Shown: positions 30 through 31,999 of the stretch, in pieces
Layout: every line of letters starts with the position of its first letter
Numbering within the stretch: position 1 is the first letter of the stretch
Source: Oscillospiraceae bacterium
GTDB lineage: Bacteria > Bacillota > Clostridia > Oscillospirales > Acutalibacteraceae
Assembly (NCBI GenBank): GCA_015066525.1
Contig: SVOG01000051.1
Coordinates: 1 to 38,936 of the forward strand
DNA: 38,936 bases
Direction: 5' to 3'
Made by a program: the position numbers and the translations under genes
The notes under the pieces: generated by a model
The model's input: only the letters and a program-made list of their open reading frames with translations
Database searches by the model: none
Told to the model about the DNA's origin: nothing

Positions 30-56
30 TGTAGGGAGCGATGCCCACATCGCTCC
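30..56 (+). repeat. Type I REP-like hairpin (TGTAGGG box)
   Basis: A TGTAGGG box runs into a perfect 9-base stem, GGAGCGATG (35-43) and CATCGCTCC (48-56), with a 4-base loop. Related hairpins that begin TGTAGGG or end CCCTACA recur at 286-312, 8458-8478, 23139-23168, 23317-23346 and 31973-31999. This copy and the inverted one at 286-312 bracket the type II element at 99-255. Confidence 0.7.
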
Positions 57-285: not shown

Positions 286-312
286 GGAGCGTCGGGGTCG
301 CCGCTCCCTACA
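286..312 (-). repeat. Type I REP-like hairpin, inverted copy
   Basis: Stem GGAGCG (286-291) and CGCTCC (302-307), followed by CCTACA, so on the minus strand it reads TGTAGGGAGCG. It is inverted relative to the copy at 30-56. Confidence 0.6.
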
Positions 313-2949: not shown

Positions 2950-3741
2950 ATGAATATTGATGCTAATGTCCAGAAAATACTCTTTGCTCTGATGAGGAGA
3001 TGGAAACTGCTTGCCATCTTTCTTATCATCGGTGTTCTGCTCGGCTACGTTTACACGGCGCATTTCACCACATTAACGTATTCGTCCAATGTGCTCTATC
3101 TTGCGCAGGCTGTGGACAGCAGGGACGAGATGGGTGAAAACTCAAACGATAACAATACTGCCCGCATCAGCAATACCAGCAAGATGAACTATGTGCAGCA
3201 TATGATGCAGACCTATATTCAGATTATGTCGACCAATCAGTTCTACGAAACTGTCGCGGACGACCTGAATAAACAGTACGGTTCGGGCTACACTGCCGGA
3301 ACGATTCAGGGCGCGATGTCCATCGAGGCAGTGGAAGACACGGCGATGTTCAAGGTAACCGTTACCACGGACGAGAGTCTGAAATCGTACAATATCGCGC
3401 ACCAGCTCGAGACCACCATTCCGCGCTATATGAAGGAAAAGAACGACGGTCTCGTCAAGGCAACCGTGGAAGATAAGGCGGTAAAGTCCGGCGCGTCGGA
3501 AAGTCTCGGCTATCCGAAGAAGTGTGCTCTCGGCGGTGTTATCGGATTACTTCTTGCCGGCGCCTATGTCGTACTGCGTACCCTCTTTGACGTCAGAGTA
3601 AGATCGGGCGACGAGTTGACCGACAAGTACAATATCCCCGTACTCGGCTCCATCCCGAGCTTTGATGCGAAGTCTTCGCCCATTCAGACAATGACAATGA
3701 ATAACAATCATAATAACAAGAAGAAGGGGGAGGATGCATAA
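2950..3741 (+). CDS. cpsC: CpsC/Wzz-type polysaccharide co-polymerase, tyrosine-kinase adaptor
   Basis: A 263-residue membrane protein with one helix near residues 19-40 and a second near 195-213, flanking an extracellular domain of about 150 residues. This is the layout of the Gram-positive chain-length determinant family (Wzz/CpsC/CapA). A proline-rich motif precedes the second helix only weakly (GYPKK). In Firmicutes this protein activates the separate cytoplasmic CpsD kinase through its C-terminal tail, here the Asn- and Lys-rich residues 240-263. Its stop overlaps the next start by one base (TAATG), so the two are probably coupled in translation. It lacks a fused kinase domain, as expected for the split Gram-positive system. 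Confidence 0.85.
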   Translation: MNIDANVQKILFALMRRWKLLAIFLIIGVLLGYVYTAHFTTLTYSSNVLYLAQAVDSRDEMGENSNDNNTARISNTSKMNYVQHMMQTYIQIMSTNQFYETVADDLNKQYGSGYTAGTIQGAMSIEAVEDTAMFKVTVTTDESLKSYNIAHQLETTIPRYMKEKNDGLVKATVEDKAVKSGASESLGYPKKCALGGVIGLLLAGAYVVLRTLFDVRVRSGDELTDKYNIPVLGSIPSFDAKSSPIQTMTMNNNHNNKKKGEDA

Positions 3742-4769
3742 TGGCAAGAAGAAACCGTCAGCGCAGAAATCAGAATGCGCAGAGAGCGCTCATTCAAAAC
3801 CTCAATATGAACCCCTCCACAAAATTCAAGGTAGAAGAGGCATACAAGAGCATCCGAGCGAATATTATGTTCTCGGTTATGAAAAAGGGTTGCAAGACCA
3901 TCGTCGTCACCTCCTCCGTTGCGGGTGAAGGTAAGACGACGACCACCATCAACCTCGCCATCACCTTCGCACAGGCAGGTCAGAAGGTACTTCTGATTGA
4001 CTCCGACCTTCGTAAACCGAAAGTTCACCACTACTTCGGTGTTCCGAATGCGCCGGGACTGACGAACTATCTCGGCTCGAGCGTCTTTAATACCACAAGC
4101 GATAAGGTCGACCTCTTTGAGGTCATCCATCCGACGGAATTCGAGAATCTCTCGGTCATCTGCTCGGGTACGATTCCGCCAAACCCTGCCGAACTCCTCG
4201 GCAGTGAGCCGATGGAGAGTTTCCTGCGCGAAATTTCCAACGACTTTGACTATATCATCATTGATACCCCGCCGATTAATATCGTATCGGACGCACTGCC
4301 GCTGATTAAGGAATCCGACGGCGTCGTGCTTGTCGTCAGATATAATCAGTCGACCCACCCCGAAATTGAGCGCTCCATCTCTGCGCTTGAATTCATCGAC
4401 GCGAAAATTATTGGATTTATCATCAATTTCGTCGAGCCGAATTCCTCGGGCAAGTACAAGTACTCCGGCTACCGTCGCTACGGCTACGGCAGATACGGTT
4501 ACAGCCGCTACGGCTACGGATACGGCGGATATGGAGGCTATGGCGGATACGGCGGCTACGGCGGATACGGCGGCTACGGCGGATACGGCAGCTATGGCAG
4601 TTACGGCAGCTATGGCAGTTACGGCAGTTACGGTGCTTATAACGGCAGCGCTAATCTTTCCAACACGACCTACGGCAGCAACTACTCCGCTTACGCTACC
4701 CCGATGCCTCCGAGCAATCTCAGCAACGAGACACTGTTAAACGACAAAAAATACAATCCGCACGAATGA
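3741..4769 (+). CDS. cpsD: CpsD/CapB bacterial tyrosine kinase with very long Gly-Tyr tail
   Basis: A 342-residue BY-kinase. Walker A is at 60-69 (VAGEGKTTTT), Walker A' at 84-93 (LLIDSDLRKP) and Walker B at 171-178 (YIIIDTPP). With CpsC it autophosphorylates a C-terminal tyrosine cluster and controls capsule or exopolysaccharide chain length. In well-known CpsD proteins the cluster has a few YGX units. Here residues 241-300 are an almost pure Gly-Tyr-Ser repeat with about 22 tyrosines, first as Arg-Tyr-Gly-Tyr blocks, then GGY units, then GSY units. At the DNA level this is a degenerate 9-base tandem repeat (4461-4640). The tail continues for about 40 further residues. The N-terminal 15 residues are Arg- and Gln-rich. 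Confidence 0.92.
   Translation: MARRNRQRRNQNAQRALIQNLNMNPSTKFKVEEAYKSIRANIMFSVMKKGCKTIVVTSSVAGEGKTTTTINLAITFAQAGQKVLLIDSDLRKPKVHHYFGVPNAPGLTNYLGSSVFNTTSDKVDLFEVIHPTEFENLSVICSGTIPPNPAELLGSEPMESFLREISNDFDYIIIDTPPINIVSDALPLIKESDGVVLVVRYNQSTHPEIERSISALEFIDAKIIGFIINFVEPNSSGKYKYSGYRRYGYGRYGYSRYGYGYGGYGGYGGYGGYGGYGGYGGYGSYGSYGSYGSYGSYGAYNGSANLSNTTYGSNYSAYATPMPPSNLSNETLLNDKKYNPHE
4461..4640 (+). repeat. Low-complexity tandem repeat encoding the kinase Tyr cluster
   Basis: About 20 copies of degenerate 9-base units (for example GGATACGGC and GGCTACGGC, then GGCAGTTAC-type units) inside cpsD. Gly and Tyr codons vary at the third position, so the repeat is not freshly expanded along its full length. 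Number changes in multiples of nine would alter the tyrosine count without a frameshift. Confidence 0.85.
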
Positions 4770-6250: not shown

Positions 6251-6939
6251 TTGAACATCCTCCTGAATATCTCGTCTATTGACGCATTTTTGCCGTCTCG
6301 AATTTCATCGGCTGCGCCCGAGAGCACAATATTGCCCCCGTCGATAAACACCACGTCATCGAGGATGCGTTCCACGTCGGCAATCAGGTGCGTCGAAATC
6401 AAAATGCTTGAATTTTCGTCGAAATTAGAGAGAATGGTGTCGAGAATATAGTCGCGCGTCGCAGGGTCGACGCCGCCGAACGGCTCATCGAGGATATACA
6501 AATCCGCTTTGCGCGACATCACGAGCACGAGCTGAAGTTTTTCCTGCATACCCTTGGACATCTTTACAATCTGCTGATTTTCATCAAGCTGCAAATCCTT
6601 TAGCAGCTGCTTTGCCTTTTCAGTGTTGAAGTCGCCGTAAAAGTCCTCAAAAAAATTTAGCGCCTCTCCCACCTTCATCTGCTTGTCGAGGTAAGTTCTT
6701 TCAGGCAGGTATGATATGCGAGATTTTGAATACACGCCGATACCCTGACCGTCAATGTGTATTTCGCCCTTGTTTGCAGTCAGGAGGTCGTTTATCAGCT
6801 TGATAACGGTAGTCTTGCCCGCTCCGTTTCTGCCGAGCAGACCTACTATCCTACCCCTTTCGATTTCAAAGCTAACATTATCAAGTACATTGTTATTTCC
6901 ATAGCTTTTGCATATATTTCTGCAGGTCAGTATTGACAT
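6244..6939 (-). CDS. ABC transporter ATP-binding protein
   Basis: A 231-residue nucleotide-binding subunit. Walker A is GRNGAGKTT (36-44), the signature motif is the variant SKGMQ, Walker B is LYILDEPFGGVDP, and the switch histidine is in STHL. It powers the adjacent ABC-2 permease. The start codon overlaps the stop of the GntR-type regulator by one base, and its end overlaps the permease start, so all three are translated as a coupled operon. The SKGMQ signature in place of LSGGQ is common in this small-exporter group. Confidence 0.92.
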   Translation of the reverse strand: MSILTCRNICKSYGNNNVLDNVSFEIERGRIVGLLGRNGAGKTTVIKLINDLLTANKGEIHIDGQGIGVYSKSRISYLPERTYLDKQMKVGEALNFFEDFYGDFNTEKAKQLLKDLQLDENQQIVKMSKGMQEKLQLVLVMSRKADLYILDEPFGGVDPATRDYILDTILSNFDENSSILISTHLIADVERILDDVVFIDGGNIVLSGAADEIRDGKNASIDEIFRRMFKC

Positions 6940-7304
6940 TATTTTTCACCTCCGAAATTGCACAAGTAATCAACCGCGCCCTCAAACGATATACCTATAC
7001 CTTTCATATCCTCAATATAACGGCGTACCTTCTGTGAGGCAAGCAGTTTTTTAGCGCTGTCAATAACCGCACTGTCCTCAGTTACGAATTTGCCGTTAGT
7101 CCTCTCGGTATATATCAGTCCCTCGCCCTCAAGCTCAGTCAGTGCGCGCTGCATTGTGTTGGGATTTACCTTCGCCGTAAGCGCCAGCTCTCTTACGGAA
7201 GGCAATCTCTCCCCCGGCTCGTACGCACCGGACACGACGGCAATGCGCAGTTGCTCCACCAGTTGGATATAAATCGGTCGTTCATTGTCAAAGATAAATT
7301 TCAT
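6939..7304 (-). CDS. GntR-family (YtrA subfamily) transcriptional regulator
   Basis: A 121-residue protein with an N-terminal winged helix-turn-helix: IYIQLVEQLRIAVVSG, GERLPSVRELA and VNPNTMQRALTELE are the classic GntR positions. Only about 45 residues follow, the short effector region of the YtrA subfamily. Such regulators repress their own operon with the linked ABC transporter and are released by cell-envelope stress. A perfect 7-base inverted repeat lies over the predicted transcription start (7318-7337), which fits autoregulation. Confidence 0.9.
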   Translation of the reverse strand: MKFIFDNERPIYIQLVEQLRIAVVSGAYEPGERLPSVRELALTAKVNPNTMQRALTELEGEGLIYTERTNGKFVTEDSAVIDSAKKLLASQKVRRYIEDMKGIGISFEGAVDYLCNFGGEK

Positions 7305-7317
7305 TTTTTCACCTCAC

Positions 7318-7337
7318 TGTATTACTTGCTTAATACA
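7318..7337. promoter_or_regulatory. Probable GntR/YtrA operator
   Basis: Perfect palindrome TGTATTA (7318-7324), 6-base centre, TAATACA (7331-7337). It begins directly after the -10 box and covers the expected transcription start, 14 bases ahead of the regulator's start codon. That is a classic repressor position. Confidence 0.75.
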
Positions 7338-7366
7338 ATGATACACTTAAGAGTTCTGTTTGTCAA
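7338..7366 (-). promoter_or_regulatory. SigA-type promoter of the GntR-ABC operon
   Basis: On the minus strand: TTGACA (7361-7366), 17-base spacer, TATCAT (7338-7343). The -35 box lies inside the last codons of the upstream glycosyltransferase gene. Confidence 0.85.
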
Positions 7367-8444
7367 GACTTTTTTGAAAAATATTTAAGTTTCGGCTGAT
7401 ACGCTCATCCGTGGGCGCGAGTTTATGCGCTATTTTGCAGAGTGCGAGCGCACTTTCATACAAGCCGAGATTACCCGCGCAGACGCTGCCGATATCGTAA
7501 AGCATGCTGTCCCATGCAAAACCCTCGCTGATATAGGTTTTGGGCTTTTCTGTAATCTTCATCGCCTCAGTGACCATAAAATATGCCTTCAGATAATTGC
7601 CCTGCTCATACGCCAGTAATGCCGCCTCGGCATAGGGCTCGCGCAGATACGGCGCCTCGGCAATCGCGCGGTAAAGCCACAAGGACGCATTATAGTAGTC
7701 CCCTTTTGCCTTGTACGCCCGAGCGATAAAACGCATCGACGCGGCGCGTTCGTCGCGCCACACTGCATTCGGCATCTTCAGATGGCGCTCCAGGGTCGCA
7801 ATACAATCATCCCAACGGTGATGGAACAGATACTCCCTGCCGAGATAGTGCATATTGCGGTCGTCATCGGGCGCCTCCTTCACCGAGAGTTCGAGCAGGG
7901 GCAAATACTGTGCACGTGATTTCGTGCTGTCAGGATAATGATTCAACTTCACTTTATAGGCAAGGGCAAAGAGTTCATTATGATCACCGATATATTGCAG
8001 CACCTCGTGGACGGGATGAATCCATCGAAAGCCGTGGCGCGCGTGAATTTTGTCGCCATAGAAGGTAATATCGGGTGTGCCGTCAGGCTTAAAACTCCAG
8101 GTATAGCTGTACCTCGCTTGCGTCGTCTTTGCAGTCCACACCTTCTCGAGCTCTTTTCGCCAGCCCTTTTCAAACACCTCGTCCAAATCCGTGCAAACGC
8201 AGATGTCATAATTATCAGGAACGAAATCAAGCGAAATATTGCGCGCGGTGTCAAATCGCCATTCGTCAAGGCTGATTTGATAGACCGCGACTCCCCTCTC
8301 TTTCAGTTTTGCCACGGTGGCGTCGGTCGACCCGGTGTCGCAGACAAAAATGCCGTCCGCCTCGCTCATTGAATCCACCCAGCGGTCGACAAATTTTTCC
8401 TCGTTTTTGCAAATAGCATATACTGCCACTTTATACTGATTCAT
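7347..8444 (-). CDS. Family 2 glycosyltransferase with TPR-like C-terminal half
   Basis: A 365-residue cytoplasmic enzyme. Residues 1-150 are a GT-A fold: AICKNEEKFVDRW at the N-terminus, DTGSTDAT for nucleotide-sugar binding and TDLDE as the metal-binding DXD-type motif. Residues 180-350 are helical and repeat-like (YLGREYLFHHRWDDCIATLERHLK, IARAYKAKGDYYNASLWLYRAI), resembling tetratricopeptide repeats that hold protein substrates. This combination is typical of protein-glycosylating GT2 enzymes. It lies 38 bases behind the collagen-like gene on the same strand with its own GAGGTG ribosome site. C. difficile has a similar pairing, sgtA with bclA3, so I infer that it glycosylates the collagen-like protein. 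Confidence 0.85.
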   Translation of the reverse strand: MNQYKVAVYAICKNEEKFVDRWVDSMSEADGIFVCDTGSTDATVAKLKERGVAVYQISLDEWRFDTARNISLDFVPDNYDICVCTDLDEVFEKGWRKELEKVWTAKTTQARYSYTWSFKPDGTPDITFYGDKIHARHGFRWIHPVHEVLQYIGDHNELFALAYKVKLNHYPDSTKSRAQYLPLLELSVKEAPDDDRNMHYLGREYLFHHRWDDCIATLERHLKMPNAVWRDERAASMRFIARAYKAKGDYYNASLWLYRAIAEAPYLREPYAEAALLAYEQGNYLKAYFMVTEAMKITEKPKTYISEGFAWDSMLYDIGSVCAGNLGLYESALALCKIAHKLAPTDERISRNLNIFQKSLDKQNS

Positions 8445-8457
8445 AACATCACCTCTA

Positions 8458-8478
8458 TGTAGGGCGGTTTCCCGCCCT
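8458..8478 (+). repeat. Type I REP-like hairpin between collagen-like and glycosyltransferase genes
   Basis: TGTAGGGCGG and CCGCCCT flank a short loop; on the minus strand the hairpin is GGGCGG GAAA CCGCCC with a GNRA tetraloop. It lies between the collagen-like stop and the glycosyltransferase ribosome site. Without a T-run it is unlikely to stop transcription fully but could tune or protect the mRNA. Confidence 0.6.
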
Positions 8479-8482
8479 TTGA

Positions 8483-9313
8483 TTACGCGAGTTTCACAAT
8501 GACAAGATTGGAAGAAACCGTACAGTTACCGCCGGCACCGGGGGTAACGGTAATATCCGAAGTGTTATCGGCAGGATTCACAATGCTGAGCACATCGCCC
8601 GCATTTGCATTCACAATCACGGTATTGGAAAGTTCCTCCGCAGCCGTCATGCCGACAACGGAGCTCTCAAGCAGGGTACCGTTAATCGCGATACCAAGCT
8701 GTCCGCTCTCGCTGAGAGTTGCGTGAAACGCCACGAGATACGAGCCGGCTTCTGCGAGATTGAATGTGCTGTCGGTGATACGGGTAATACTGCCGCTCTG
8801 CGGACCGTTTTCCGGAAAGTCAATCTCTTCTCCCGCTGCAATCGCGTCGGCATTATCGTCCGGCGCAAGCGCATAGAAGTTTGCGAAGGAGATAACAGCA
8901 GGCTGACCTGCAGGACCCATTGGACCGGTCGGACCTGTGGCACCCTGAGGTCCAACAGGACCAACTGGACCTGTGGCACCTGTCGCACCTGCAGGACCAG
9001 TCGCGCCTGTCGCACCCGTGGCTCCGGTTGCACCCGTGGCACCAGTCGGACCGGTCGGACCCGTGGCACCGGGCATACCCATCATTCCGGGGAAACCCTG
9101 GGGACCCTGAGGACCCGTGGGACCCGTAGGGCCGGCAATCATCGACGGGCAGCAGTTTTGCTGAGGGGATACCGCGGAGCAGTTCTGCTGCGGCAAGTTC
9201 TGCAGGCAGTGAAAAAAATCGTCACGCCTTCTGTCATTCTCTCTTGCGTTACAGTTATAAATCGTAATAATAAAAACCTCCCTGAGTTTACAGAGGTCAA
9301 CCTCATACCCCAT
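8483..9313 (-). CDS. BclA-like collagen-repeat surface protein
   Basis: The protein has a Cys-rich N-terminal part, 26 uninterrupted Gly-X-Y triplets (mostly GPT, GAT and GPQ), and a C-terminal domain of about 138 residues resembling the BclA/TNF-like trimer cap (ending [14 protein letters not shown]). Such proteins form trimeric collagen-like filaments, often on spores, with the threonines glycosylated. No signal peptide is present, as for spore-coat proteins made inside the mother cell. The start is uncertain. An ATG at 9311-9313 is used here and a TTG lies at 9341-9343, but neither has a good ribosome site. The only strong one, AGGGAGG (9277-9283), points to an in-frame ATT at 9271 or 9268. 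The neighbouring glycosyltransferase supports a glycoprotein role. Confidence 0.85.
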
Positions 9314-9344
9314 CCTATGACAATTTCCGACATTTTGACACAAA

Positions 9345-9382: not shown

Positions 9383-10594
9383 TTAAGCCATAAAGGAACG
9401 GATGACCGACTCGCAGTCGTTTCTGTCCATAATCTTCGGGACGGGATAACCGGGGTTGCCCTCCTTCAGAGCACGGGTAACGAGCGTATCCATATCCTCT
9501 TCCTTAATGAAGTCAAACTTCTCGGGGATATTCATTGCCGCATTCATTCTGCGAATTTCGGCGATGAAGGCTCTGCCCTTCTCAGCGGTGGACATGGACG
9601 GTGTCGTAATACCGATAATATCCGCCAGCTTCGCAAGCCGGGGATAAGCAGCCTCGCCGTACCAGTCGAGCACATACGGGAGAATCACCGCATTGGCAAG
9701 ACCGTGGGGCGTACCGTACAGTCCGCCGAGGTTATGCGCAATCGCGTGAACATATCCGACAAACGCACGCGTAAACGCACAGCCTGCAAGATACGAGCCC
9801 TTGAGCATATTGCCTCTTGCCTGCATATCCTTTCCGTCGACGTAAGCCTTCTCAAGATTATCGTGGATAAGCTTGGTAGCCTCCTCGGCATATTGAATCG
9901 TAGATTTCACATTGCTCTTACCGATATAAGCCTCCACGGCGTGAGTGAGCGCATCCATGCCTGTTGTCGATGTAATATGCGGCGGCAAACCTACGGTGAG
10001 AGCCGGGTCAAGCACTGCATTCTTCGGACGGAGACAGATGTCATTGATAGCGTTCTTCTCATGCGTTTCAGGGTCGGTAACTACGGCAGCAACGGTGGTT
10101 TCTGAGCCGGTTCCGGCAGTGGTGGGAACGGCAAAGAAAGGCGGCAGCTTCTTGAGCACTTTAAGGTATCCGCGCATCGCACGAACGGACTGATTCGGCT
10201 TGACGACTCTCGCGCCGGCAGCCTTAGCGCAGTCCATTGCAGAACCGCCGCCGAACGCGATAATACCCTGACAACCGTTTTGGATGTAAACATCCTTACA
10301 GTCCTCAATGTTCGGAATTGTCGGATTTGGCTGAACGCCGTCGTATACGAAGTACTCGATATTCTGCACCTTCAGTTCTTCAAAGAGCGGGTCAAGCAGA
10401 TGCAGTCCCATCAGTCCCTTATCGGTTACGACGAGCACTCTGTCAATTCCCTTGCCCTTAATGAACTTCGGCAGTCTCAGCACCGAGCCTTCGCCCTCGA
10501 GAATCTCGGGCTCCGACCAGTCCATAAAGCACATAGCGACCATAAAAACTCTTTGGTACACACGGTACCAGCACTTTTTCAAAGTCCAGAGCAT
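9383..10594 (-). CDS. Iron-containing alcohol dehydrogenase
   Basis: A 403-residue group III dehydrogenase. The nucleotide-binding loop is FGGGSAMDCAKAAG, followed by GTGSETT, DALTHAVEAY and a metal-site stretch with HAIAHNLGG and TPHGLANAVILPY, whose histidines and aspartate bind Fe2+. These enzymes interconvert aldehydes or ketones and alcohols with NAD(P)H in fermentation; 1,3-propanediol, butanol and lactaldehyde enzymes are relatives, and the substrate cannot be told. AAGGAGGT 7 bases ahead fixes the start. The first 30 residues are longer than in most relatives but are supported by that site. It has its own promoter (10626-10654) and terminator, so it is monocistronic. Confidence 0.93.
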   Translation of the reverse strand: MLWTLKKCWYRVYQRVFMVAMCFMDWSEPEILEGEGSVLRLPKFIKGKGIDRVLVVTDKGLMGLHLLDPLFEELKVQNIEYFVYDGVQPNPTIPNIEDCKDVYIQNGCQGIIAFGGGSAMDCAKAAGARVVKPNQSVRAMRGYLKVLKKLPPFFAVPTTAGTGSETTVAAVVTDPETHEKNAINDICLRPKNAVLDPALTVGLPPHITSTTGMDALTHAVEAYIGKSNVKSTIQYAEEATKLIHDNLEKAYVDGKDMQARGNMLKGSYLAGCAFTRAFVGYVHAIAHNLGGLYGTPHGLANAVILPYVLDWYGEAAYPRLAKLADIIGITTPSMSTAEKGRAFIAEIRRMNAAMNIPEKFDFIKEEDMDTLVTRALKEGNPGYPVPKIMDRNDCESVIRSFMA

Positions 10595-10625
10595 TTTCAG
10601 ACCTCCTTATTAATTTTCACTTATT

Positions 10626-10654
10626 ATAATACAATTTTTTTTCGACTTTTGCAA
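10626..10654 (-). promoter_or_regulatory. Promoter of the Fe-alcohol dehydrogenase gene
   Basis: On the minus strand: TTGCAA (10649-10654), 17-base spacer, TATTAT (10626-10631). Its -35 box is 9 bases from the -35 box of the divergent promoter at 10664. Confidence 0.7.
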
Positions 10655-10663
10655 CACTTATTA

Positions 10664-10692
10664 TTGTACAAGACGGATATATTTGATATAAT
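10664..10692 (+). promoter_or_regulatory. Promoter of the sialidase-like gene
   Basis: TTGTAC (10664-10669), 17-base spacer, perfect TATAAT (10687-10692). The weak -35 box may mean activator help or extended spacing contacts. Confidence 0.65.
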
Positions 10693-10722
10693 TACAGTAT
10701 CAAGAATAACGGAGTGAATGAT

Positions 10723-11952
10723 ATGCCTACCAACCTGTTTGATAAAAGCGATTACAGATACGCGCGTGTAAGCCTTGCTGCAAACGGCAGTAACCTGCTT
10801 GCCGCCGCCATTCGCTGCTCGCAGAATATAGAAAGCGGCAGCGTCTGGGGATATAATGAAATCACCACAAAACGCAGCACCGACGGCGGCAAGACCTGGA
10901 GCGAAGAAAACGTCATCCTCACTCCGCCCGCGCGCAAAATTACTGCCGAGGCGGACAACACGAAATCCTCTTTCTTCCAGAATCCGCAATTACTGTTTTC
11001 CGGCGGCGAATATGTGCTCCTTTTCACCTTCTTCCCCGAGAGTATGGGCGCCGAGGAGGAGCAGCTCCTCGATAAAAAGAAGGCGGCGTATACATATTTC
11101 AATAACAATACGCGCCCGATTATCTACGACCGCGACGGCAATTATTACATTATTGCCGAGAACGGCAAGGTACTCACCTCCGCCAAGGCGACGACGGAGT
11201 ACACCGTGCGCGATATGGGCGAACTCTTCAGTGGCGAGGAATACATCGGCAATATTTACTTAAACGGTGCGATGGGCAAGAGCGACGGCGTCGGCAAGAC
11301 AACCTTTGGCGCACCGCTCAAGGCGCCGAAGCGCAGTTATATTATGGTGATGAAATCCGCCGACGGCATCCGCTGGAGCAAACCCGTCGACATCACATCG
11401 CAGATATTGAACGACGCGGACGGCGCCGTGTTGATAACGGGCGAAGGAAACGGCACCGTCACAAGCGAAGGAAAAATCATCGTGCCGCTATACAGTGATA
11501 AGGGCGCACTTTGTATCTACTCCTACGACGGCGGCGTGACCTGGAGCCGCAACCGCCACATTCCCTATATGCCGACGAAGGATAGCGCATTATCCCTCGT
11601 GCAGCTTCCGGGCGGCGAACTCCTCGCGCTCGGCAGCAAATGGTGCATTTCACACGACAAAGGCATTACCTGGATGAAAGAAAAGGCAAAGGCGACACCG
11701 TCGTGTGCCGTTTGCCGCGGCGACCGACTCTTCCTTATCATCCATTCGGCGAAAGTCGGCACCTACCTTCTCGGCTGCGATATCATCAGCAAGAAGGGGA
11801 AATTCAAGACTGTCAAGCCCGACAAGAATACCACCGCTTTACCGGGTGCATTCTTCCCCGCGGCACAGCTTGCCTTCTGCAGCGATAAACTCGCCATTCT
11901 CCATATCAGTGACGACTACACGAATGTCGCGATTGATACAACAGAAGTATAA
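10723..11952 (+). CDS. BNR/Asp-box sialidase-like protein, probably cytoplasmic
   Basis: A 409-residue six-bladed-propeller candidate. Four Asp boxes (S-x-D-x-G-x-T-W) are visible: RSTDGGKTW near residue 50, KSADGIRW, YSYDGGVTW and ISHDKGITW. The opening YRYARVSLAANGSNLLAA stands where sialidases have the FRIP/YRIP arginine. I see no signal peptide, so it would act inside the cell or not be a secreted sialidase. GH33 enzymes cleave terminal sialic acid, but many Asp-box proteins have other roles. The GTG at 10714 overlaps the GGAG ribosome site, so the ATG at 10723, 8 bases past it, is preferred. Confidence 0.7.
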   Translation: MPTNLFDKSDYRYARVSLAANGSNLLAAAIRCSQNIESGSVWGYNEITTKRSTDGGKTWSEENVILTPPARKITAEADNTKSSFFQNPQLLFSGGEYVLLFTFFPESMGAEEEQLLDKKKAAYTYFNNNTRPIIYDRDGNYYIIAENGKVLTSAKATTEYTVRDMGELFSGEEYIGNIYLNGAMGKSDGVGKTTFGAPLKAPKRSYIMVMKSADGIRWSKPVDITSQILNDADGAVLITGEGNGTVTSEGKIIVPLYSDKGALCIYSYDGGVTWSRNRHIPYMPTKDSALSLVQLPGGELLALGSKWCISHDKGITWMKEKAKATPSCAVCRGDRLFLIIHSAKVGTYLLGCDIISKKGKFKTVKPDKNTTALPGAFFPAAQLAFCSDKLAILHISDDYTNVAIDTTEV

Positions 11953-22952: not shown

Positions 22953-23462
22953 TCAGGCATAATACTCGTCTTTCCCCATCAGCCATTTTTTGGGATTCTC
23001 ATCTATGTATTGAATATGCATACACAAATCTTCATCGCTACGAATGATATGGTCGTGGTACGACCTTTGCCATATTCGTTCGCCGATTTCTTTTTCCGTA
23101 AACTTCTTAAAAGCTGTTACAAACTTTGAGAGCGTATTTGTAGGGGGCGACGACCTCGGCGCCCCGCTATCAGGAACGCTACTGTTATCTATTACCAAAA
23201 GCATATGAATATGGTTGGGCATAATGACATAATTAACAACCGTAATATCATCATAAATGCTGTTCATCCGAATAATATTTTGTTCCGAAACGGCTCCGTA
23301 TTTTGTTAGATGTACAAGCGGGCTGCCGAGGTCGTCAGCCCCTACAATTTCAGAGAGAATACACTGCATATCAAGAGTACATATAGTTATAAAATACGCA
23401 CCGTCTGAAGAATAATCATAATCAGCAAGCCTGTTTGCTTTTCTTTTCGGTAATTCTTTCAT
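22953..23462 (-). CDS. REP-associated tyrosine transposase (RAYT, Y1/HUH family)
   Basis: A 169-residue protein. The HUH metal motif is PNHIHM (residues 82-87), preceded by NYVIM; the likely catalytic tyrosine is Y135 in RSYHDHIIR. The N-terminal ANRLADYDYSSDGAYFITIC is the usual opening of the group. RAYTs are domesticated single-strand transposases that process REP palindromes. Two copies of a REP-like hairpin are read in-frame here: residues 40-49 (from 23317-23346) and residues 99-108 (from 23139-23168). Both fall between conserved blocks, so the enzyme may still fold. The start overlaps the stop of the GH13 gene by one base (TAATG), with no clear ribosome site of its own. Confidence 0.88.
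   Translation of the reverse strand: MKELPKRKANRLADYDYSSDGAYFITICTLDMQCILSEIVGADDLGSPLVHLTKYGAVSEQNIIRMNSIYDDITVVNYVIMPNHIHMLLVIDNSSVPDSGAPRSSPPTNTLSKFVTAFKKFTEKEIGERIWQRSYHDHIIRSDEDLCMHIQYIDENPKKWLMGKDEYYA
23139..23168 (+). repeat. Type I REP-like hairpin A inside the RAYT gene
   Basis: TGTAGGGGGC, a GACGACCTCGGC centre and GCCCCGCT. The GGGGC arm pairs with GCCCC. It encodes residues 99-108 of the RAYT on the opposite strand. Confidence 0.85.
23317..23346 (-). repeat. Type I REP-like hairpin B inside the RAYT gene, inverted to A
   Basis: On the minus strand it reads TGTAGGGGCT, the same GACGACCTCGGC centre, then AGCCCGCT. Against copy A, 26 of 30 bases match. The four differences are two paired changes, GC to CT on one arm and GC to AG on the other, which keep the stem. 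Confidence 0.85.
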
Positions 23463-31972: not shown

Positions 31973-31999
31973 GCGGGCGATTCGTGAATCGCCCCTACG
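31973..31999 (-). repeat. Type I REP-like hairpin between proB and proA
   Basis: Stem GGGCGATTC (31975-31983) and GAATCGCCC (31986-31994) with a 2-base centre, followed by CCTACG; on the minus strand it reads CGTAGGGGCG. It lies directly ahead of the proA ribosome site. Confidence 0.8.

Follow-up and report, generated by a model that had tools for sequence, protein, structure and literature searches.

A RAYT gene of an Oscillospiraceae bacterium carries an inverted pair of REP hairpins in its reading frame, possibly sites of its own product

The stretch of Oscillospiraceae DNA analyzed here (38,936 nucleotides, hereafter the window) includes a RAYT/TnpAREP gene with two REP-like hairpins inside its own reading frame, which raises the question of what such elements are doing in the gene of an enzyme of this kind. 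The gene (22953 to 23462, minus strand) encodes a protein of 169 amino acids and is, by homology, that of a Y1 HUH single-strand endonuclease. The protein matches Pfam Y1_Tnp barely above threshold (23.5 bits versus a cut-off of 23) and scores 58.9 bits with the NCBIfam equivalog model REP_Tyr_transpos, below its cut-off of 80; this cut-off is set by curators and is not itself a biological property, and we read the protein as a divergent RAYT member. A profile of the window protein and its relatives found 4er8, a RAYT in complex with a REP hairpin, as the nearest PDB sequence (E = 9e-11), and the same entry is the nearest PDB fold to the predicted structure of the window protein (mean pLDDT 85.1; Foldseek E = 7.6e-7, TM 0.55). 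N83, H84, H86, and Y152 are invariant in both alignments A1 and A2, so that the HUH motif and the single tyrosine are present. The HUH codons (H84-I-H86; 23205 to 23213, minus strand) lie between the two hairpins, and the codon of Y152, which is likely the catalytic tyrosine (23007 to 23009, minus strand), lies downstream of both, these coordinates being derived from residue numbers. As expected of a RAYT, the gene is linked to GTAG REPs present elsewhere in the genome.

The internal REP at site 1 (23317 to 23346, minus strand) is in gene-sense orientation with its GTAG foot 5' and is read as the peptide IVGADDLGSPL (residues 39/40 to 49), in the model a predicted beta-hairpin between beta1 and alphaA. 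Site 2 (23139 to 23168, plus strand) is antisense with its foot toward the 3' side of the gene and is read as SGAPRSSPPT (residues 99 to 108), in a loop between beta3 and alphaB where model confidence is low. The pair spans 206 nt and encloses about 150 nt of coding sequence. The initial annotation had described these hairpins as inverted copies matching at 26 of 30 positions, read through in the RAYT frame between conserved blocks, with four differences that form two paired changes; all of this was confirmed, and both compensated pairs lie in the lower stem (G-C versus C-G and C-G versus T-A). Folded as single-stranded DNA, 23139-23168 and 23317-23346 form the same hairpin (-9.1 and -10.3 kcal/mol, with z of -3.0 and -2.6, respectively). 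A search of the whole window against Rfam at gathering thresholds returned a tRNA as its sole match.

Further hairpins of the same TGTAGGG type had been reported outside the gene, and the type does occur elsewhere in the genome, but those in the window are of other REP families. By sequence match, the dispersed REP at 286 to 311 (minus strand) belongs to the family found inside the RAYTs at C15 and C52 of the same genome and that at 31975 to 31998 (minus strand) to the family inside the RAYT at C17, and the REP at 31 to 56 (plus strand) is of a further type, which all five RAYTs that we found in this incomplete genome lack. The hairpin at 8458-8478 is a shorter one, and that placed at 31973-31999 begins with CGTAGGG instead of TGTAGGG. 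Absence of the type from the rest of the genome, which had been named as grounds for giving up the original reading, was not what we found: the window gene's own hairpin type has three further copies (at most 2 mismatches), and only three, in this 74%-complete genome. In all four additional RAYT genes of the genome (C5, C15, C17, and C52), an inverted pair occupies the same two positions, with one family common to C15 and C52 and others in C5 and C17. Elsewhere in the window, we noted by eye a collagen-like Gly-X-Y repeat protein (8483-9343) and a tyrosine-kinase-like protein with a Gly/Tyr repeat tail adjoining exopolysaccharide-type genes (3741-4769).

The arrangement recurs widely among relatives. 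From 134 ORF hits, we assembled a full-length set of 112 ORFs in 109 loci, drawn from 60 related genomes, the best 80 of 464 genome-contig relatives, and one viral contig; partial and frameshifted ORFs (including L076 of genome G028, L072 of G006, and L048) were omitted, the plain IS200-like locus L001 was scanned and gave no full-length match, and the scan omitted L003, L044, L057, L064, and L065, which duplicate scanned loci, as well as the pattern loci L006-L035. Homologs lacking the hairpins would have spoken against the original reading; instead, the pair was detected at the same places in 91 of the 112 ORFs, with site 1 only in 5, site 2 only in 7, and neither in 9, and it is a lineage trait. 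The hairpins are not indispensable, since 21 of the 112 genes miss one or both by our detector; several of the incomplete genes show, by eye, decayed hairpin remnants with the loop still in place. GT[AG]G hairpins number 217 in these ORFs versus 11.8 expected from codon shuffles, and their presence inside RAYT ORFs is not due to chance. Their orientation is fixed: in 111 ORFs (L079 was excluded from this recount, from the foot count, and from the tree), all 101 GT[AG]GGG hairpins upstream of the HUH codons have the sense orientation and all 102 downstream the antisense one, the GTAG foot being outermost in all 203. Counted regardless of a detected hairpin, the foot is retained as GTAGGG at site 1 in 97 of 111 ORFs and as CCCTAC at site 2 in 99 of 111; codon counts at the foot were not used, being circular with detection. 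Other collections added little (one relative among viral contigs, three among plasmids, and one unannotated record among phages). The plasmid relative L192, from Monoglobus pectinilyticus, has an identical hairpin pair, and its ORF fits the model only from position 57.

A tree computed without the loops (FastTree, midpoint root) separates ten pair-less relatives, together with L051, from the remaining genes, among which losses are scattered, although support is weak for the edge dividing pair-bearing from pair-less genes (0.756 on one side and 0.353 on the other). These ten full-length pair-less relatives, recovered from phylum and plasmid searches, have REPs beside the gene within 800 nt in 7 cases, and three of the ten (L165, L167, and L169) contain a GTAGGG hairpin at some other place in the reading frame. 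A flanking REP occurs within 600 nt of 22 of 82 pair-bearing genes and resembles the gene's own hairpin in 15 of the 22, RAYT flanks having been scanned only for GTAG hairpins.

The initial annotation had taken the paired changes as a sign of selection on the nucleic acid. The part that concerns constraint stood, and so did the REP-like hairpins in the RAYT frame, whereas the changes did not prove to be recent in this gene. Five window-type genes from five genomes are identical within the whole codons of the hairpins at 48 bases, including 16 of 16 third positions, in all 10 pairwise comparisons; outside the hairpins, third positions in the same 10 ortholog pairs agree at 58/146 to 96/151 (about 40-64%). 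Each site in these genes keeps its own version of the two-pair difference, and the two compensated differences are therefore long-standing and position-specific. A sixth genome, G028, has a frameshifted window-type gene (L076) with a decayed site 1. Dispersed copies show the same kind of compensated variation in the lower-stem pairs. Among 41 window-type copies, hand-picked as distinct sequences, pairing holds in 97.9% of stem cells; the claim of compensation rests on columns 8-23 and 9-22, which were not constrained by the search pattern and are paired in 41/41 and 40/41, with all four Watson-Crick types at the first. Two other counts were set aside, that of whole-stem compensation within genes (29 both-sided, 7 one-sided, and 36 non-standard in one copy) because it includes naturally unpaired apical positions and that of lower-stem compensation (22 both-sided, 10 one-sided) because it is partly fixed by the detector. 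Further, sites 1 and 2 share 31 hairpin sequences (compared over the first 22 nt) that yield different peptides, being read sense at one site and antisense at the other, which argues for constraint on the nucleic acid; two of the 31 peptide pairs do resemble each other (VGAIHESP/RAIRESPL and VGALHEAP/RALREAPL) because the hairpin is palindromic. As judged from these comparisons of related genes, the internal hairpins are conserved as nucleic-acid sequence.

Hairpin sequence varies widely between genes, and yet the two copies within a gene stay alike at any protein divergence, a pattern of concerted evolution. Across the 91 pair-bearing genes, the mean edit distance between paired hairpins (foot excluded) is 1.42, with 30 of 91 pairs identical, versus 7.84 between genes, and the lowest of 10,000 permutations of the within-gene mean is 6.80. 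As the full set includes cross-collection duplicates (L041/L080 and L070/L095) and a tandem copy (L124), we repeated the test on 68 genes dereplicated at 70% core identity and obtained a within-gene mean of 1.56 versus a permutation mean of 7.83 (lowest, 6.56). Without conditioning, the distance between site-1 hairpins of different genes climbs from 0.00 to 8.17 over bins of core divergence while the within-gene distance remains at 0.66-1.65, and the distance matrices of sites 1 and 2 correlate at 0.85, with 0 of 1,000 Mantel permutations as high. In one clear case, two six-gene groups differ by the same base pair, C:G versus A:T, at both sites. Compared with the nearest relative of each of the 91 genes, a gene's own partner is closer in 43 cases and the ortholog's hairpin in 30, with 18 ties, the ortholog often being closer because close relatives share the hairpin; with the nearest relative at a core divergence of at least 0.35, the numbers become 72, 13, and 6. 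The own site 2 is closest or co-closest to the own site 1 among all 91 genes in 50 of 91. A first count of 74/80 was dropped in favor of these unconditioned figures, as it was conditioned on differing site-1 hairpins and hence biased.

The dispersed REPs follow the RAYT genes as well. Copies outside RAYT genes are enriched in the genomes that carry the matching gene for five of five hairpin types among 41 genomes, with means of 9.0 to 14.0 copies in carriers versus 0.37 to 1.23 in others (permutation p of 0.00085 to 0.011); this association ignores genome relatedness and rests on 2 to 6 carriers per type, with only 2 for two types. Carriers include genomes with broken copies, and G060-G063 were counted as non-carriers; when searched, all four proved to lack a RAYT of this kind. 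There are exceptions in both directions: G019 has the window-type RAYT and no copy of the type outside it, and G036, G008, G012, G025, and G028 are among those with many copies for which no matching RAYT was found, G036 having 12 of the window type. At one locus of the latter genome (L193, G036:C61), an outward-facing REP pair at 954-1136 spans 183 nt, compared with 206 nt for the internal pair; we considered it as part of a RAYT gene and rejected this, no recognizable RAYT gene being found there.

We favor, as the somewhat better-than-even reading, that the RAYT gene contains the enzyme's own REP pair, held in cis and tying the enzyme to its REP family. We infer that the hairpins are the enzyme's DNA recognition sites, which would then sit inside the gene, not beside it, in the two loops that flank the HUH-coding core. 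The protein might bind or nick its own gene whenever the hairpin-bearing part becomes single-stranded; the gene would then limit itself and tend to break at these sites, and in each lineage the pair would be renewed or selected to fit the current specificity of the enzyme, keeping enzyme and REP family together. Self-recognition or autoregulation, as originally proposed, is plausible, and we likewise infer that by binding its own gene the enzyme may limit its expression or keep enzyme and REP family matched. The stronger version, in which the internal pair is the working substrate of the gene's own product, limits both expression and spread, and serves as an inherited master copy setting the REP family of the genome, we regard as a tentative possibility.

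The alternative that survives best, and which we consider a real if minor contender, is that the hairpins are tolerated passengers, REPs that landed in two permissive loops, were kept alike by recombination or template switching and by re-seeding, and are of no use to the gene. In-frame REPs are known in unrelated genes (Di Nocera et al. 2013, PMC3733652, in its accessible part), the units can grow in tandem without loss of frame, as in L075 (G030:C73), where five REPs with a 42-nt period occupy site 1 and an array of the same REP with a 45-nt period adjoins the gene, and several genes retain the loop with a decayed hairpin. Inverted-repeat conversion, too, could yield some of the matching between copies without any function. 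However, such passengers would not be expected to hold a fixed orientation, nor to reach their density in RAYT ORFs: in the best 80 of 464 contig relatives, RAYT ORFs contain 157 GTAGGG hairpins, or 3.30 per kb, 50-fold above the 0.065 per kb in other called ORFs of the same loci (29, some of these ORFs being doubtful), with 0.84 per kb (80) in the remaining sequence. Homogenization is also contradicted in the window-type genes, which keep their two-pair difference in five genomes while third positions elsewhere have fallen to 40-64% agreement.

The hairpins, or a long duplex between sites 1 and 2, might alternatively act in the mRNA by controlling translation or decay. In the mRNA of the gene, a duplex between the two sites is indeed predicted (z = -3.4, equaled by 0 of 100 shuffles), but G.T accounts for only 46 of 1,635 standard stem pairs in the internal hairpins, which points to DNA rather than RNA as the constrained form; the scarcity of G.T and the conserved unpaired GTAG foot fit a TnpAREP DNA site better, and REPs outside the gene in 7 of 10 pair-less relatives also speak against this role, which we therefore rate as improbable. 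That the two loops are conserved as protein, with incidental hairpins, is very unlikely: V-G does recur at site 1 and P-T at site 2, but both follow from the GTAG foot, third codon positions are conserved in the hairpins, the 31 shared sequences encode different peptides at the two sites, and L046 and L136 read the same site-1 hairpin in two frames.

If the gene indeed holds its own recognition sites, it might be expected to break at them, and the broken copies are of interest in this respect. Six of eight end at, or are joined through, the internal REPs (L053, L054, L055, L056, L077, and L078). In L053 and L078, the core between the REPs is gone and one double-foot palindrome stands in its place; in L054, L055, and L077, similarity to RAYT stops shortly past the site-1 REP (decayed in L054), and the start of L056 is an apparent site-2 foot. 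The other two break away from REPs, namely, L079 and L052 with L063, the latter being a gene of G007 split by about 10.7 kb. These numbers are small, and they suggest that the internal REPs are active rearrangement sites, whether via the enzyme or via slippage. Across 41 genomes, the bare double-foot pattern GTAGGG-N(13-17)-CCCTAC occurs at 10 places in 7 genomes and a reversed control at 8 places, likewise in 7 genomes. Two of the 10 lie in the RAYT remnants of G023 and G027; apart from these, the pattern is near chance. As a separate observation on the split gene (L196, G007:C16:16500-28300), the insert lies near the HUH codons and encodes, with names assigned by eye, an apparent tyrosine integrase (6890-8203) and a replication-like protein (9679-10767).

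How does this arrangement compare with known systems? The REPs of the E. coli TnpAREP/RAYT lie outside its gene, whereas those of the window gene lie inside; the E. coli protein (4er8), the nearest solved structure, is similar in recognizing a GTAG-footed hairpin with an unpaired stem position. REPINs reportedly consist of two REPs in inverted orientation, whereas the inverted pair here encloses coding sequence. The closest precedent is subclass 2.4 of tnpAREP genes, in which, according to the accessible part of Quentin et al. (2018, PMC6006769), REPs are inserted in frame, generally between HuH and Y; that REPs occur in frame in tnpAREP genes has thus been in print since 2018. Like that subclass as described there, the window gene encodes a Y1 HUH enzyme with the NH[IFV]H motif (here NHIH) and WQ and carries GTAG REPs without a frame break, its YIDENP differing from YIxNNP at one position. 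A second fixed site upstream of HuH, a pair that faces outward, concerted change of the copies, and third-position conservation, all seen here, go unmentioned in the accessible part of that paper. The accessible part of Di Nocera et al. (2013, PMC3733652) reports that many genes contain REPs and that REPs flank RAYTs; these intragenic REPs and the Rickettsia palindromic elements resemble the present case as palindromes read through in frame, but there they are spread over many unrelated genes, whereas here the concentration is in RAYT genes. Cleavage by TnpAREP depends on the GTAG motif and on features of the stem, as stated in the available portion of PMC8266576. Our literature search, with subscription journals mostly outside its coverage, turned up no earlier account of a two-site pair or of its changing in concert, and as far as searched the new elements are the two fixed sites that form an outward-facing pair around the HUH core, their concerted change, and the breakage of six of eight broken copies at internal REPs.

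One question to which these genes speak is how RAYTs and REPs remain matched as they evolve; enzyme and target have usually been paired by guesswork. As each of these genes carries an enzyme together with its likely target, the sequences alone supply dozens of pairs for testing and make it possible to trace a REP that is constrained both as DNA site and as peptide. If the internal pair is the enzyme's own substrate, then each matched change at the two sites would mark a switch in the specificity of the enzyme. Double-foot REPs may have originated by central deletion (Quentin et al. 2018, PMC6006769, in the part accessible), and L053 and L078 show a double-foot REP exactly at such deletions, the origin suggested in 2018. 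In Gemmiger formicilis DFI.6.10 (L158), two RAYT genes are separated by about 1 kb, and their internal pairs differ from one gene to the other.
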